DNA from: Vibrio astriarenae
GTDB lineage: Bacteria > Pseudomonadota > Gammaproteobacteria > Enterobacterales > Vibrionaceae
Length of the DNA stretch: 64,000 bases
Direction of reading: 5' to 3'
Assembly (NCBI RefSeq): GCF_010587385.1
Contig: NZ_CP047476.1
Span: 558,001-622,000, forward strand
Shown: piece after piece, positions 51,949-58,382 of the stretch
Numbering within the stretch: the first letter of the stretch is position 1
Layout of the letters: every line of letters starts with the position of its first letter
Position numbers and translations under genes: made by a program
The notes under the pieces: generated by a model
What the model was told of the DNA's origin: nothing
The model's input: the letters and a program-made list of their open reading frames with translations, nothing else
Database searches by the model: none

Positions 51949-53028
51949 ATGAGAACGTCGACGCTACGCTTACTACCCATTGCAATTCTTTTTGCCACCG
52001 CAAGTCATGCAGGCAACTATGCTATAGACGCGCGAGGAGACGCGATGGGTGGAGTGGGAGTCGTTTCAGGAGACTTTCTTACTGCACCCTTTTACAACCC
52101 TGCGCTAACCGCTATTTATCGACGTAGTAATAATGTGGGTATGCTTTTACCTAGCATCGGTTTTAACTACAACGACCAACATAACATGCTGGATGATATC
52201 GATCGCGCGATTAGCGCTACTGATCCCGGTGATATACAAGATGCACTTGATGATCTTGATGGTGATACCGCAGGCGTTACTATTGGTGCTGCTGCTGCGT
52301 TTGCAATCCCTAACCGATATGTCTCAATGAACGCATACGGCAAATTGTATAGTGAAAGCTTCGCTCAGGCGAATGTGGGAGCAAACGTCAATGACTCAAC
52401 CATAGAGGGAGCCGCGATTGGTGTTCTAGAAGGGGGGCTCTCGATTGCAAAATACATGACGTTACTTGGCCATCACTGGTCATTTGGTGTAACACCAAAG
52501 CTTCAGCGGATTTATACATACAGTTACAGCTCAAGCCTGCAAGACTTTAGCCTATCAGACATTCGCGACAACGGAGACGCTGAAACTACTTTCAATTATG
52601 ACTTAGGCGCACTTTGGTTCTACGGTCCCTTGAGAGTAGGTCTCAGTGGAAAAAACATGGTGTCGAGAGACATTACCACAGCAGATGGCAATTATTCATA
52701 TAAAATGCGCCCACAATATACGGTAGGTACAGGCCTGATTGCGGATTTTTGGCAGGTCAGCGTAGACTATGATCTAAACGAAGCAAAAAACTTCACCTTC
52801 GTTGATGATAATAAACAAATGCTGCGAATTGGTGGAGAAGTTGATCTCATGCGCCAATTTAAATTCCGAGCAGGTTACTACACGAACTTAGCCGCAAGTG
52901 ATGATGAAGGTACGGTAACAGCGGGCCTTGGTATATCACCATTAAACATCACACAAATGGACATTGGTGTTAGCTATACTAATGAGAATGCAATGGGCGT
53001 TTACCTCAATTTCTTAAGCTCATACTAA
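51949..53028 (+). CDS. vxrD: VxrD, TraF-like outer-membrane protein
   Basis: A 359-residue protein with a signal peptide (about 1-22, ending SHAGNYAID). A beta-barrel of the TraF_2 ('conjugal transfer protein TraF') family follows: ARGDAMGGVGVVSGDFLTAPFYNPAL and GVTPKLQRIYTYSY. The end is GVYLNFLSSY. Despite the family name it has no conjugation neighbours. It is the fourth gene of the vxr operon, 82 nt after vxrC. Confidence 0.87.
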   Translation: MRTSTLRLLPIAILFATASHAGNYAIDARGDAMGGVGVVSGDFLTAPFYNPALTAIYRRSNNVGMLLPSIGFNYNDQHNMLDDIDRAISATDPGDIQDALDDLDGDTAGVTIGAAAAFAIPNRYVSMNAYGKLYSESFAQANVGANVNDSTIEGAAIGVLEGGLSIAKYMTLLGHHWSFGVTPKLQRIYTYSYSSSLQDFSLSDIRDNGDAETTFNYDLGALWFYGPLRVGLSGKNMVSRDITTADGNYSYKMRPQYTVGTGLIADFWQVSVDYDLNEAKNFTFVDDNKQMLRIGGEVDLMRQFKFRAGYYTNLAASDDEGTVTAGLGISPLNITQMDIGVSYTNENAMGVYLNFLSSY

Positions 53029-53078
53029 GGTGACAGCGTCACGATAGAATTAGACATTTCATTACGTAAAATAGACGT

Positions 53079-53112
53079 TATAATGCCTCGCATTCAACCA
53101 CGGGGCATTTTT
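53079..53112 (+). promoter_or_regulatory. TATAAT box and hairpin abutting the vxrE start
   Basis: A perfect -10 box TATAAT (53079-53084) overlaps a 9-bp stem AATGCCTCG (53082-53090) / CGGGGCATT (53101-53109). A T5 tract ends 1 nt before the vxrE ATG at 53113. The 3' arm contains the GGGG Shine-Dalgarno. Read-through RNA could fold and terminate or hide the ribosome site. RNA starting about 53091 would lack the 5' arm. The -35 is weak. Confidence 0.5.
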
Positions 53113-53256
53113 ATGTTTGATCAATTACCTCCACTTAGTCACGAAGAGCAACAGAAAGCAGTCGAGAAAATTCAAAAGTTGATGGAGCAGGGTATCAGTA
53201 CAGCACAAGCGATAAAGATCGTTGCTGATGAAATACGCAAAGAATACGAAAGCTGA
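53113..53256 (+). CDS. vxrE: VxrE, UPF0181/YoaH-like small protein
   Basis: A 47-residue protein beginning [18 protein letters not shown], with [20 protein letters not shown] and ending in IRKEYES. It closely parallels E. coli YoaH (UPF0181: [21 protein letters not shown]...). The fold is a small helical bundle of unknown function. In V. cholerae the last vxr gene is this family. It is short and easy to miss. It lies 84 nt after vxrD and before a strong terminator. Confidence 0.9.
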
Positions 53257-53302
53257 GAAGACCAATAAGCACAGTACCTTAAGCATCAAGTAAGCACTCA
53301 CT

Positions 53303-53335
53303 AAAAACCAGCACAAAATCGGCTGGTTTTTTAAT
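53303..53335 (+). terminator. Terminator of the vxr operon
   Basis: AAAACCAGC (53304-53312) pairs with GCTGGTTTT (53322-53330) followed by TTAATTTTT, 47 nt after vxrE. Confidence 0.88.
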
Positions 53336-53740
53336 TTTTACGTTACTTTATTTTTAATGAAAAGCAAGATTTAGCCCTAGGCAAAATAAAAGGAAAACCA
53401 ATAATACACATATGTTTCAATGCTTTATGTTAGTAAATTCATCTAGCAGCTTTTCAGTAGGTCTTGGTTTGTAATTAAATTACATGCGCCAACTCATACT
53501 GTAACTTGGCACCTATTAGTGATGGTGTTTAATGCTACCGACGCACGCTGTCACAAATAAGTTGAAAGTGAGGGCAAGTTACGTTCGGAAGGACTATGAC
53601 TATTAGTTACAGGGTAATGAAATAGGTAGAAAGTTGCTGTAGATCACACTTATTGGACGCGTGTTTGAGGGGGGGTATGATGCTATTGTATGATGATTAA
53701 ACTTCATTTTAATAGTTTAACTTTTTTAACAAGGCTCTAT
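53336..53740. other. 405-bp non-coding region
   Basis: No supported gene. AT-rich with scattered short repeats. A 7-G run lies at about 53670. No promoter clear enough to list. Confidence 0.5.
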
Positions 53741-53920
53741 ATGGACATCTGGATGCGCTGGGCGCGAGCAATATTTGCTATCTATGTGATCCTAATGGGG
53801 TCAGCTCTTACTATCATGCTTAGCGAAAATGATATCGAAGAGGCGAACATAGAACTCCCATCTAAGACCAAAAACTACGTAGTACGTGACACCAACGGAT
53901 ACGTTGTCAGCCCACATTAA
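53741..53920 (+). CDS. Small single-TM protein, hypothetical
   Basis: A possible 59-residue protein with one TM helix (WARAIFAIYVILMGSALTIML) and a polar tail, DIEEANIELPSKTKNYVVRD. AAGG lies 6 nt before ATG 53741; the frame is open from 53690. No family recognised. It might be a real Vibrio microprotein or chance; the organised TM followed by a charged tail favours real. Confidence 0.4.
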   Translation: MDIWMRWARAIFAIYVILMGSALTIMLSENDIEEANIELPSKTKNYVVRDTNGYVVSPH

Positions 53921-53988
53921 TCCAATGTTCCTGCTACTTAGGGTCTGCCATTCTGTAGCTATCGTTTTGTTTACCTCACTGTAAAAAG

Positions 53989-54092
53989 AAAAAACCAGCC
54001 ACAAAGCAGTGTGGCTGGGACTTATACGTGTGAACAATAAAATTCACTAACAACGTCAATTGGCTAGGTGACCCTCGGCTTAATAAGGGTCA
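53989..54092 (-). ncRNA. qrr: Qrr-type quorum regulatory small RNA, copy A
   Basis: A 104-nt RNA on the minus strand with all Qrr features. The 5' hairpin is TGACCCT...AGGGTCA, followed by the core CTAGCCAATTGACGTTG then TTAGTGAA. The second stem closes with TTGTTCAC. The Rho-independent terminator is CCAGCCACA/TGTGGCTGG plus TTTTTT. Qrr RNAs are made under LuxO-P and sigma-54, and act with Hfq on luxR/hapR and aphA mRNAs. One core base differs from the canonical GCCAACTGACG (C to T). Confidence 0.93.
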
Positions 54093-54103
54093 GATTAATC
54101 AGA

Positions 54104-54120
54104 GCATGACATATACCAAG
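54104..54120 (-). promoter_or_regulatory. Sigma-54 promoter of qrr copy A
   Basis: On the minus strand CTTGGTATATGTCATGCT has GG and GC separated by exactly 10 nt. They fall at -25/-24 and -13/-12 relative to the TGACCC start at 54092. This is the classical sigma-54 geometry expected for LuxO-activated qrr genes. I did not find a convincing LuxO site (TTGCA-N3-TGCAA) further upstream. Confidence 0.8.
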
Positions 54121-54259
54121 AGTTAGCGCTTGTGTTCGTTTACTATTAATCAATAACTTAGATTGAATTGCCAACTCTATAAATCCCATCGCATCCGACA
54201 GAAGGTGAACTCGTTGATATGCTGAACTGACCCTAGTCTGCATTCCATACACCTACATT

Positions 54260-54362
54260 AAAAAAAAGACCAATCACATCAAAGTGACTGGCCCTAGATA
54301 CTGTGAACAAGTGTATTCACTAACAACGTCAGTTGGCTATATCGACTACATACTGGAGTCGA
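54260..54362 (-). ncRNA. qrr: Qrr-type small RNA, copy B, divergent 5' hairpin and promoter
   Basis: A second Qrr-like RNA on the same strand, 167 nt upstream of copy A. It keeps the exact core TAGCCAACTGACGTTG and GTTAGTGAA, the closing TTGTTCAC, and a terminator CCAGTCAC/GTGATTGG plus T8. The 5' hairpin is different (CGACTCC...AGTCG). No GG-N10-GC occurs within 120 bp upstream. A weak sigma-70-like pair, TTGAAT and TACCCT with 17 nt between, could drive it. Confidence 0.82.
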
Positions 54363-55024
54363 TAAATGTAGGGTATCAATGTAATGGATTACATTCAAGT
54401 TAAGTTATTGATATTTATACAGAACAACACATTGAATAGGATGTAGGTGTAAAGGCTAGGGTAGTTTGATATCGCAAATTATCATTGTGTTGGTGTGACT
54501 TAAGTCACTTGTTAATGTCTAGTTTGTCAATGTTTCACAATTGGTTACATAAGTCAGACCGTAGGATGATTAAATTATGAGCGTTTTCACAAAGTTTCTG
54601 TGTAAAAAACGATAAAGTCAAAATTCCCCAGCAAAAAAAGAAATTTGAATGCAGATGTTGAATCTCTCTAGGACCAAAGCATCGGTTGGGCGCTTTTTGC
54701 TAAAGTTTGGGCCCAACCAGGTTCATTGCTTAAAGTGAAAGTCAAAGCTCTTCCTAGTTTTACGAGTCGTGACTGAGCATCGCTCAACAAAATTCAATTT
54801 CACGTTTCGCTTACTAAATTGAACAGCAGGGATGACTTTCATCTATGGTGCGTGCCATAACAGCCGCTTTGTGACTTGAATCCGATCATTTTAGTTATGG
54901 ATGCCTGAATGAAATATAAGCAACCAGTAACCAAGTTCGAATCGAATAACGCATCTTTTTTCAGTATTTTAGATACGACTAGCTTGTACAAACGCTTATG
55001 CCTCTCTGTCAATCCCAGTTAAAA
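54363..55024. other. 660-bp gene-free region with nested inverted repeats
   Basis: No ORF supported. It contains a 14-bp palindrome GTGACTTAAGTCAC (54495-54508) and a stem GGTTGGGC/GCCCAACC (54684-54718). There is a 9-bp inverted repeat TGAAAGTCA/TGACTTTCA spanning 54736-54841, with TGAGC/GCTCA (54774-54786) and TTCAATTT/AAATTGAA (54793-54823) nested inside. It may be a structured RNA, a miniature element or a regulatory region. Confidence 0.45.
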
Positions 55025-56211
55025 GTGTCCTGTCTTTAGCAAAGTAGAAATGTCCCTTTCAAGGGTGTCTTAACACAGTAGGAGAGTTAGGTCTTCGAGC
55101 TGGATGACTGAAATGATTCTGGGTCGGTGAGGACAGGATTGATTGCTCGGAGTTGCTCTTGCAGGGCGCGTTGCTGGGCTTTGCGTTTTGGGGCCTTTTT
55201 GCTTCGGGTGCGTTTCTGCTGTTGTTCAAATTCTTCCTGTTTTTGCTGAGCGAACTTCAACACATTGCCCAGTCGCTTGTTGTCCACCACTTGAGCCTGG
55301 TTGACGTTATCGAGCTTATCGAAGGTTTTGAAGTTGAGTTTGCGATACCCATATTGGATGGCAATCTCGCCATTGGGGTAATCGAGTACCTTGACATTTT
55401 CATGGATTAATCGGGTATTTTCTTCCGTATCTTCAATCATATAGATGACTTTATCGTATTGAAATGTTAGTGATTTTGAGAGCTTGCGGATCTCTTGCCA
55501 GCTAAAGATATCGTCCAACTCTTGCTCCGTTTCTCGCACGTTTCGATGCATGTCTTTCGGGTATTTGGCCGGCTTGGCAAAGCGTCGATTAAAGTCAGCA
55601 ATGAAGTAGGGAAGCCAAGCATTGGCCTCTTCAATGGTGCTGATCCCTTGCAAGCGCATCTCTTTGACTAAGCGGTCTTGTAGCGTTAAGTTGGCTCGCT
55701 CAACACGGCCTTTGGCTTGCGAGCTGTTCGCACAAATCAGTTCGATACCCAGCTCCTGTAAGACACGCCCATATTGCGTTTGTCCGACTTGTTTTCGTTG
55801 CTCTTGATTGACCCGAAATATCGAGTGCTTATCACTGTAGAGTGCCACGGGCTTGCCGTGCTCGCGCACATACTCTCGAGTCGCGACCATGTAATCAAAC
55901 GCAGATTCGGTCTCACTGAACCTGAGATTCATCAGGCGGCCCGCGGCATCATCAATGAAGACAAGCAAGCAGCACTTGTCGCTGCGTCCTTCAAACCAGT
56001 CATGATGAGAGCCGTCAATTTGAACCAGTTCGCCAAAACAATCTCTACGATAACGAGGCTGATTGACGAAGACGACGATCACGAACATCTTGCAGTACTT
56101 TAAATCGGTTTAGGTCTTGGTTACTCATAGGGATTAACATCGGTTTAGGTCCTCAGCAACGAACATCGAGACTTAATACGAGGACATTTCAATCTGGTCT
56201 AAACCGGACAT
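55025..56211 (-). mobile_element. ISNCY-type insertion sequence, internally deleted
   Basis: Imperfect terminal inverted repeats are visible: the left end starts GTGTCCTGTCTTTAGC with AGAAATGTCC further in. The right end, read inward on the minus strand, starts TGTCCGGTTTAGACC with TGAAATGTCC. The enclosed gene is an ISNCY-family transposase lacking its N-terminal region. Full elements of this type are about 1.5 kb; this one is about 1.19 kb. No target duplication is evident. Confidence 0.75.
55087..56128 (-). pseudogene. ISNCY-family transposase, deletion plus frameshift
   Basis: The true start is 56128 (MSNQDLNRFKVLQDVRDRRL), typical of the family, but that frame stops after 27 codons. The catalytic part resumes in another frame with NQPRYRRDCFGELVQIDGS. 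This continues through the DDE core (LLVFIDDAAGRL, LYSDKHSIFRVN, CANSSQAKGRVERANLTLQ) to a lysine-rich tail. Comparison with the remembered family layout places a deletion of about 110 codons, including the helix-turn-helix, near 56075. It should be inactive. Confidence 0.82.
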
Positions 56212-56609
56212 TACTAAATAGCTCTTACAAATTCAGTGCGCATTATATGTGTTATGTTAAATACCCAGTTTTTTGAAACCAGGGGATTCATCTAAGATGT
56301 GTCTAACCTTCCCTGACATTCAATCAGATTGAACATAATTATATTTACCATAAAATACCTAATAATCAGTTAATTATCTGACGATCATTAACTGATTATC
56401 AGCTACATCGTCACTCTACCTATTAAACAGAAAACGATTTGGTGCAAGCTTATTTTATTGTCTAATGATGGTCTCAAACACTATCTACTTTGTAGTCATA
56501 AACCTTTAAACAAAAAATCCACCCAATACTAGTAGTAAATGGGTGGATCTATTGAGAACTAAGTTAACCTATAACTCTCGTTATCTAGAGAGATACCTAA
56601 GAAACGATG
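56212..56609. other. Intergenic region IS / porin with porin terminator
   Basis: No gene seen. Within it, TCCACCCA (56518-56525) and TGGGTGGA (56540-56547) form a hairpin followed on the minus strand by TTTTTTG. It lies about 60 nt after the porin stop and is its terminator. Confidence 0.75.
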
Positions 56610-57590
56610 TTATAAGAAGAAACGACCACCGATACTCCACTTGTCATCATCATCTTCAATATCAAACTGGTACCCTGCGAACCCAACAAATCTCTGTGTA
56701 AAACTGTGTTCAACTTGGATCGCGCTTTGTTCGAAATCTGTGGTTTTCGGTGTCCCAGATGTTACCTTGCCTTCAACAAACTCATAGTTAACGCTGAACA
56801 CTGTACCAGAAGTTAGGCCGTAAGCGATAATTGCTTCATATTGCTGAGATTCATAGTAACCAGGATAAAAGTTATCATTGTCTGCATAGACAAGTGCGCC
56901 AAATATTCCATCTGCATATTTACCGTAACTCAGTGCAACGCCGTGTGATTCTGCATCTTCATTGTCGACTTCGCCGCCATTGTATACATACCCTAAGGTC
57001 GCTCCCAGTGCTGAGAAAGCAATGGATATTTGCCCGCGGTCGTCATAATCAACCAACATGTCAGTTTTCTGACCCTGCCAACCCAACCCAAAGTCGAGTG
57101 ACATATCGTTGGCGAAGCTAAACCCGTTACGATAAGTGACCATTTTGTCACCACGTGCTACGCCAAGGTTGCCCTGATTCGCATATAAAAAGTCATTAGC
57201 AAATGCAATTGGCTGGTCTGCCACACCTAAGATATCGTAGTACGGTGTCCATTGCGTACCTACCACCAGTCTACCGGCAGTTTCATGTGTTGCGCCGATA
57301 TATCCTAATCGAGTTGTGAATGAATTATCGCCACCATTCAAATAGTTTATTGCCCATTCACCCTTTGCATCGACTGTAACACCATTGCCGATATCGTGTG
57401 TCCCTTCGATATTAAGTCTTGGGGAAACCTGATGAACTTCAACTTCAGTGCTATCACCATATTCACCGACACCAACATCAACGTAACCACCGATCGAAAA
57501 GGTTGAAGAGTTATCCTCATATACTTGAACTGCAAAGGAAGGTGCGCCAAATGTTGTTGCCACTGCTAAGGTTAGTAATTTTATTTTCAT
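56610..57590 (-). CDS. Gram-negative porin (OmpU/Porin_4-like)
   Basis: A 326-residue outer-membrane porin with a 20-residue signal peptide (ending APSFAVQ). A 16-strand pattern begins STFSIGGYVDVGVGEYG, with RLGYIGATHETAGRLVVG, the loop-3 region YYDILGVADQP, and a C-terminal strand ending GGRFFL (terminal Leu after Phe-Phe). It allows diffusion of small solutes. It is monocistronic, with a CRP-like site about 225 bp upstream. Confidence 0.88.
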   Translation of the reverse strand: MKIKLLTLAVATTFGAPSFAVQVYEDNSSTFSIGGYVDVGVGEYGDSTEVEVHQVSPRLNIEGTHDIGNGVTVDAKGEWAINYLNGGDNSFTTRLGYIGATHETAGRLVVGTQWTPYYDILGVADQPIAFANDFLYANQGNLGVARGDKMVTYRNGFSFANDMSLDFGLGWQGQKTDMLVDYDDRGQISIAFSALGATLGYVYNGGEVDNEDAESHGVALSYGKYADGIFGALVYADNDNFYPGYYESQQYEAIIAYGLTSGTVFSVNYEFVEGKVTSGTPKTTDFEQSAIQVEHSFTQRFVGFAGYQFDIEDDDDKWSIGGRFFL

Positions 57591-57811
57591 AATGTTGTAT
57601 CCGTACTAGTTGTTAAGCCATGCCCGTGTTAGTAATTATTACTAAAACACCCACGAACAACTTAAACTTAGTCGTGATATGAAAAATAGAAATGTGGCAT
57701 TTGTAAATAATTTGTCAATAAATGCAATTTCACTCTAGCAAGCCAGTTGAAATTTTTTCTAACTAACTAATTATCCGTACTATTTCTCTTTTTAGCATTC
57801 CCCGAAAACTT

Positions 57812-57831
57812 AGCGTGATACAGATCACAAT
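57812..57831. promoter_or_regulatory. CRP-like binding site upstream of porin
   Basis: CGTGATACAGATCACAA has half-sites GTGAT and ATCAC with a 4-nt centre, close to TGTGA-N6-TCACA. It lies about 225 bp before the porin start, far for class I activation but plausible for a distal promoter. Confidence 0.5.
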
Positions 57832-58017
57832 AACAAAAAGTCGATGGAACTTTTACTAAGTTGGGCCTGAACGCACGTTGATATTGAAACCAGACTAGAC
57901 TCTTTGAGCTGCATATAACCTAAATTTGGACCTTGAGTCTCAAACAATAATCAAACATCATGCAAAGCCATCAGGGTCCAAACGGCACACCATCAATAAA
58001 AGAACTTTTAGCCCAAA

Positions 58018-58050
58018 TAAAAAAGCGACTTGAATAACAAGTCGCTTTCT
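58018..58050 (-). terminator. Terminator after yciH
   Basis: AAAGCGACTTG (58022-58032) pairs with CAAGTCGCTTT (58038-58048). On the minus strand TTTTTTATTTG follows, about 22 nt after the yciH stop. Confidence 0.9.
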
Positions 58051-58070
58051 TCATTTAATGCTGCGGTTGA

Positions 58071-58382
58071 TTAACCACCAGCCAACTTCACAGTCATTCC
58101 CTTCTTTTCAAGGTGTGCTTTGATTTTATCGCGATTATCACCTTGAATTTCAATCATTCCATCTTTAACAGAACCACCACATCCACACACTTTTTTAAGT
58201 TCAGCGGCCAGTAACTTTATTGGCGCATCATCAAGATCTAAACCTTTAACAATACACACACCTTTACCTTTACGCCCTTTTGTCTCTCGCTGGATACGGA
58301 CGATGCCGTCACCTTTTACGCGTTCAACTTTTTTTTCTTCAGGTTTAATGCGACCTGTTTCTGTTGAATATACTAATGTCAT
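58071..58382 (-). CDS. yciH: YciH, SUI1/eIF1-family translation factor
   Basis: A 103-residue SUI1-domain protein with GDGIVRIQRETKGRKGKGV, KKVCGCGGSVKDGMIEIQGD and a C-terminal LEKKGMTVKLAGG. In E. coli YciH influences initiation fidelity by disfavouring weak initiation complexes. It follows the DUF3319 gene by 3 nt on the same strand and has its own terminator. Confidence 0.93.
   Translation of the reverse strand: MTLVYSTETGRIKPEEKKVERVKGDGIVRIQRETKGRKGKGVCIVKGLDLDDAPIKLLAAELKKVCGCGGSVKDGMIEIQGDNRDKIKAHLEKKGMTVKLAGG

Follow-up and report, generated by a model that had tools for sequence, protein, structure and literature searches.

Two genes for Qrr small RNAs, here copies A and B, lie next to each other on one strand of the Vibrio astriarenae genome; both lack a LuxO site, and copy B lacks a sigma-54 promoter as well. 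The pair is real and unusual. Qrr RNAs serve the sensing of cell density (crowding) in vibrios, and in the textbook circuit phosphorylated LuxO, acting with sigma-54, is the gate for their synthesis. The RNAs of the two copies are ordinary Qrr RNAs, and the novelty lies in their control.

The tandem pair and its genomic setting

The window, the whole stretch of 64,000 nucleotides analysed, corresponds to positions 558001-622000 of contig 2 in a 4.80-Mb genome of two contigs. It contains two matches to the Rfam Qrr family (RF00378), both full length and on the minus strand: copy A at 53985..54092 (5′ end 54092; 96.1 bits, E 4.5e-17) and copy B at 54260..54362 (5′ end 54362; 71.3 bits, E 3.2e-11). 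Both scores exceed the curated gathering score of 50 bits, and the covariance model thus agrees with the initial annotation, which had described two Qrr-like RNAs from the letters alone. Copy B lies upstream of copy A on the same strand, across a gap of 167 nt (54093-54259). The target-pairing core TAGCCAA[CT]TGACGTTGTTAGTGAA is present in both, and a terminator scan detected an intrinsic terminator, a hairpin followed by a T run, in each, so that the core, terminators, shared strand and spacing first proposed are all borne out. Both RNAs also fold better than shuffled sequences (z -3.18 for A and -2.80 for B). Copies A and B are both real Qrr genes.

The 5′ hairpin of copy B had been singled out as different, and its sequence does differ (stem UCGACU/AGUCGA versus the usual UGACCC/GGGUCA), though its pairing is retained, as the pairs form in the Rfam alignment. 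In a ten-sequence Qrr alignment, where L142 is misaligned at its 5′ end, three pairs of the 5′ stem have both sides changed, in one sequence each, a number reached by 6 of 500 shuffles. Counted over its 103 nt, the identity of copy B to the 194 other Qrr genes in our working set nowhere exceeds 84%; it is therefore no recent duplicate of A.

The genome holds five Qrr matches in all: A, B, one at position 1532188 of contig 2 (116.1 bits), and two on contig 1, at 2189080 (91.2 bits) and at 1766886 (44.5 bits, under the threshold). The gene at 2189080 adjoins, divergently, a LuxO-like ORF (427 aa read), which we take to be luxO, also in view of the UvrB-like ORF beside it. LuxO-like sites were scored as a 13-mer (TTGCA-N3-TGCAA, maximum 10); the three Qrr genes other than A and B score 10/10 each, and the four of the relative G297 score 9, 9, 10 and 10. 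One of these four (L036:1773-1881) occupies the place of copy A, flanked by the same two genes, TraF_2 and SUI1. Copy B is absent from this orthologous locus and was found in no other of the searched genomes. The fifth RNA of V. astriarenae, at 1766886 (L005:1501-1598; 44.5 bits), has an altered core end, GTTTAAGAA, together with a sigma-54 box and a perfect LuxO site. It is likely orthologous to L114 of G297, which has the same neighbour gene, and the two would make up a divergent Qrr subgroup.

The initial annotation held that qrr genes are dispersed and that a tandem pair is unusual. At this spacing the pair does stand alone: of 227 genomes of the genus, this is the only one with two exact cores separated by 241-301 nt. 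Other pairs and clusters do exist, however. Among the 42 genomes for which Qrr positions were listed, mostly those with five or more, same-strand pairs are 405 nt (G136) and 395 nt (G274) apart, and wider spacings comprise a pair at 893 nt (G201), distances of 1.4-3.5 kb in G151, G153, G168, G181, G208 and G293, and a cluster in G110 with three genes inside 8 kb. In the pairs of G136 (L104, G136:C26) and G274 (L105, G274:C2) both genes have sigma-54 boxes, and LuxO-like sites lie between the genes with none in the 330 nt ahead of the first, as if one enhancer were shared. The three genes of G110 (L107, G110:C68:20000-28900), all without a sigma-54 element, lie near ORFs that by eye resemble a partial integrase and a LexA-like repressor, and the 126 nt around two of the copies are 87% identical. 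The number of Qrr genes usually quoted per genome is four to five; G151, G153, G168, G208 and G293 have eight or nine Qrr matches each.

Tandem sibling small RNAs are familiar from the PrrF1/PrrF2 locus, which also gives a read-through product, PrrH. A review presents PrrF1 and PrrF2 as two siblings in tandem, which is also the arrangement of A and B here, and describes Qrr genes as 'distal' (PMC4211561). Our literature search, with most subscription journals outside its scope, returned no report of tandem qrr genes.

Upstream regions of the two copies

Upstream of copy A, a -24/-12-like element, TTGGTATATGTCATGCT (54103..54119, minus strand), has the form GG-N10-GC with the TGGT variant of TGGC, scores 11.5 of 15.5 and sits at the position usual for other Qrr genes. 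The initial annotation was right about its distance, but the element is not a clean one, given its rare -24 box and a best LuxO-like score of 6/10 for copy A. The other genes with TGGT boxes (L195, L202 and L203) all have perfect LuxO sites. An IHF-like site (54148..54160, minus strand; AATCAATAACTTA on the plus strand) matches the consensus and includes TATTGAT, the left half of a LuxR-type site. Judged by its sequence, copy A appears to keep a weakened sigma-54-like promoter and to have lost its LuxO site.

Considering that copy A has a sigma-54-like box and no LuxO site, it may be driven by sigma-54 together with another enhancer-binding protein, a tentative possibility compatible with any reading of copy B. 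A precedent is SypG, which activates qrr1 of V. fischeri independently of LuxO, still with sigma-54 and through sites that overlap the LuxO sites (PMC10162802). Against this, the SypG motif has no match with up to one mismatch between 53260 and 58134.

For copy B, the absence of a -24/-12 element within 120 bp was correctly noted at the outset and extends further, as no GG-N10-GC occurs on its strand between 54362 and 55090, about 730 nt upstream. Its best LuxO-like score is 7/10. The whole window has 36 LuxO-like sites scoring 8/10 or more, none of them in the 5.2 kb from 53001 to 58200. Given that A and B both lack such a site, the pair as a whole, and not B alone, would be without LuxO input. 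The proposal that one copy has left the LuxO/sigma-54 circuit therefore stands for B, which has neither element, but has to be widened: with its TGGT box and its LuxO-like score, A looks detached from LuxO as well.

A sigma-70-type candidate ahead of copy B consists of a weak -35 element, TTGAAT (54393..54398, minus strand), and, 17 nt from it, a weak -10 element, TACCCT (54370..54375, minus strand). In a simple sigma-70 scheme, used for all -35/-10 scores given here, it reaches 6.5, a value attained at the same place by 43 of 161 ordinary sigma-54 Qrr genes and equalled by 7.6% of shuffles (11.7% in another run). A sigma-70 consensus scan of 53940-55090 returned no site, the shuffles having a mean of 3.2. 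On these figures, the candidate is not convincing as copy B's own promoter. Sequences related to the upstream region of copy B occur in 27 of the 227 genomes (its own included) at E up to 0.01, in stretches of about 20-50 nt only; since the promoter region has no longer relatives in the 226 other genomes, conservation cannot vouch for it.

A perfect palindrome, AATGTAAT-CC-ATTACATT (54378..54395), overlies the candidate promoter. It is the sole exact copy in the genome, with one other place matching at one mismatch, and it could conceivably be a repressor or activator site; a MerR-like reading found no support. Another perfect palindrome, GTGACTTAAGTCAC, lies upstream at 54495-54508. Between the two, an IHF-like site, TATCAATAACTTA (54401..54413, minus strand), matches the consensus and falls inside a stretch of 41 nt that resembles (80%, E 0.002) the sequence ahead of the fifth Qrr gene (contig 1, 1766803-1766843). 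This site and the one at 54148..54160 are called IHF-like by their match to the IHF consensus. The element TAAGTTATTGAT, shared by the regions ahead of A, B and the fifth Qrr gene, fits by eye only the left half of the published LuxR consensus (PMC2680268), and fits an IHF site equally well.

A repeat search showed copy B to be bracketed by a perfect inverted repeat with arms of 11 bp (54248..54258, plus strand, and 54441..54451, minus strand). An origin of copy B as a small transposon was rejected, because the genome contains this stretch only once and by eye no target duplication could be made out. Further upstream, and sharing the strand of the pair, lies an N-terminally incomplete ISNCY transposase remnant (55087..56088, minus strand; NCBIfam NF033594, 371 bits, profile positions 116-366 of 368), for which Pfam gave no match.

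Qrr promoters across the genus

The exact 16-nt Qrr core occurs 781 times in 211 of the 227 genomes, a count that misses variant cores. The 16 genomes without it include some that are near-complete (3.4-4.2 Mb), and one of them (G128) still has an Rfam Qrr match. The promoter comparison drew on 195 distinct Qrr genes. This working set is not a random sample: it consists of the best matches, every match listed for 19 genomes, and the outliers, after removal of four non-Qrr cores. In 177 of the 195, TGGC-N8-TG is in place. The LuxO-like 13-mer, whose scoring replaced an earlier regular-expression count (127 of 169), reaches at least 8/10 in 172 of these 177 genes, at least 9 in 147 and 10 in 97; shuffled sequence reaches 8 in 32.5% of cases, 9 in 4.9% and 10 in 0.1%. 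IHF-like sites are also enriched: 31 of the 195 genes carry one, whereas 20 shuffles averaged 5.85 and never exceeded 12.

Comparing two count lists by eye, we found 24 cores without TGGC-N8-TG in 18 genomes. Reading 23 of them as sequence (the core of G322 starts at base 29 of its contig) divided the 24 into two at contig edges, four read as non-Qrr, six, including copy A, with variant -24 boxes, and 12 Qrr genes lacking a sigma-54 element. These 12 belong to nine genomes: copy B, four genes in G110, and one each in G201, G182, G289, G143, G196, G313 and G058. The gene of G058 (L218) is counted here but may have a decayed sigma-54 promoter, and L143 and one gene of L107, which have GG-N10-GC away from the usual position, are counted as lacking the element. 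Beyond 60 nt from the core, LuxO-like scores stay below 8/10 in all 12; one (L191) scores 8 when the search reaches to 27 nt from the core, as do about a third of shuffles. The sigma-54/LuxO architecture that the initial annotation expected of all qrr genes is present in nearly all of them.

In three places (L217, G265:C2:952621; L219, G231:C2:936114; L194, G225:C1:2102766), a core of 16-19 nt is followed at once by a terminator-like hairpin of another kind, and the 5′ and middle hairpins of Qrr are missing; L217 and L219 are alike. These may be truncated Qrr genes or 3′UTR RNAs with a Qrr seed.

Seven of the 12 genes without a sigma-54 element share one locus in seven species, namely V. thalassae, V. 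mediterranei, V. barjaei, V. hangzhouensis, V. methylphosphonaticus, V. qingdaonensis and Vibrio sp. 10N.286.49.B1. A scan of named genomes gave these names, and each Qrr region matches its counterpart in the genus set letter for letter. A DUF445-type gene is nearby in all seven and a neighbouring sensor kinase in five; the kinase did not show in the stretches read for V. methylphosphonaticus and V. hangzhouensis (L225, L230). Four species share a conserved promoter-like sequence TTGAAT-18-TAGAAT (the V. mediterranei group), which scores 10.3, and 2 of 161 ordinary Qrr genes and 0.2-1.0% of shuffles score as high or higher; the other three share TTGC(G/A)G-18-TA(G/A)AAT (the V. methylphosphonaticus group), which scores 8.4, as L191 does, and is reached by 14 of 161 ordinary genes and 1.6-3.0% of shuffles. 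The predicted sigma-70-like promoters are thus clear in four species and moderate in three. The same locus in two further species, G275 and G260, carries an ordinary sigma-54 box with LuxO sites of 9/10 (L087, L089), so a switch of promoter type would be the simplest history.

We propose a class of Qrr genes with sigma-70-type promoters for such cases. The genes at the DUF445 locus resemble copy B in having an intact Qrr RNA and no sigma-54 or LuxO elements. They differ from it in their locus and in their conserved sigma-70-like promoter, with scores of 10.3 or 8.4 against 6.5 for B. Among the five genes without a sigma-54 element outside that locus, one (L107, G110) scores 9.9 and the other four, copy B included, 5.1-6.5.

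Readings of the locus and their meaning

Copies A and B have the core, hairpin plan and terminator of Qrr1-5 of V. harveyi and Qrr1-4 of V. cholerae; they differ in having no LuxO site and, for B, in the missing sigma-54 promoter and the unusual 5′ arm. A published case close to copy B is qrr5 of V. harveyi, which is reported as outside quorum-sensing control (PMC2680268) and, in a review, as undetected in the wild type (PMC4211561). In a later paper, however, qrr5 responds to a LuxO-P mimic in E. coli and, as a higher reporter signal, in V. harveyi, and each V. harveyi qrr gene has predicted sigma-54 and LuxO-P sites upstream (PMC8043402). Copy B differs from qrr5 in having neither. We met no report of a Qrr gene free of sigma-54 in the literature covered, which had most subscription journals outside its scope and included the accessible portions of PMC4211561, PMC2628434, PMC2680268, PMC8043402 and PMC10162802.

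We give an even chance to the reading that copy B is an intact Qrr gene cut off from LuxO and sigma-54 and transcribed by another route. It would have kept its RNA, with core, terminator and paired 5′ stem, while having no sigma-54 promoter or LuxO enhancer site. Transcription would most likely start from a sigma-70-type promoter near 54363-54400, with another regulator possibly acting at the palindrome at 54378-54395, and the Qrr RNA made at the locus would then be uncoupled from LuxO phosphorylation. Through its unchanged core, copy B would pair with the usual targets (LuxR/HapR-type mRNA) regardless of cell density, and its unusual 5′ arm may spare targets that need that arm. In other vibrios, Qrr1 spares aphA through its 5′ arm (PMC4211561).

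The main rival, which we consider rather unlikely, is that copy B is a silent relic whose promoter was lost and whose RNA is not made, with too little time elapsed for decay. The want of a convincing promoter of any type for copy B fits this view, as do the transposase remnant in the neighbourhood and the degenerate promoter of copy A. Yet the 24-nt core of copy B is intact while its 5′ stem, changed on both sides of three pairs, still forms, and a gene at most 84% identical to other Qrr genes is no fresh copy, though its terminator hairpin and T run are intact.

It is improbable that B and A instead arise by read-through from an upstream promoter, such as that of the ISNCY remnant, with processing to Qrr size. 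The transposase ORF (56088-55087) does point towards B, and no terminator-like site was found on the minus strand between 54363 and 55090, but the ORF lacks about 115 N-terminal profile positions, so that its promoter may be gone, and the terminator of copy B would be expected to stop most transcription into A. Least probable of all is that both copies remain LuxO/sigma-54 genes whose degenerate sites or distant enhancer escaped consensus scans: copy A does retain GG-N10-GC and an IHF-like site, and L195, L202 and L203, with TGGT boxes and perfect LuxO sites, are presumably active, but the 5.2 kb around the pair hold no LuxO-like site that reaches 8/10 and B has no GG-N10-GC in its upstream 730 nt.

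The new wiring of quorum sensing that the initial annotation suggested is a fair inference from the sequence. More broadly, and with the chances about evenly balanced, individual Qrr genes may have been cut from LuxO and sigma-54 repeatedly in vibrios and put under other promoters or inputs, as at the DUF445 locus, in the three-gene cluster and in copy B, so that Qrr levels and the master regulator would be set partly by signals other than density. Considering that relatives with an ordinary promoter exist at the same locus, the conserved Qrr genes of V. mediterranei and its relatives are the better test case. A Qrr gene without the LuxO/sigma-54 gate would keep the master regulator down at any density, or tie it to another signal, and would offer a testable reason why vibrios keep several near-identical Qrr genes.
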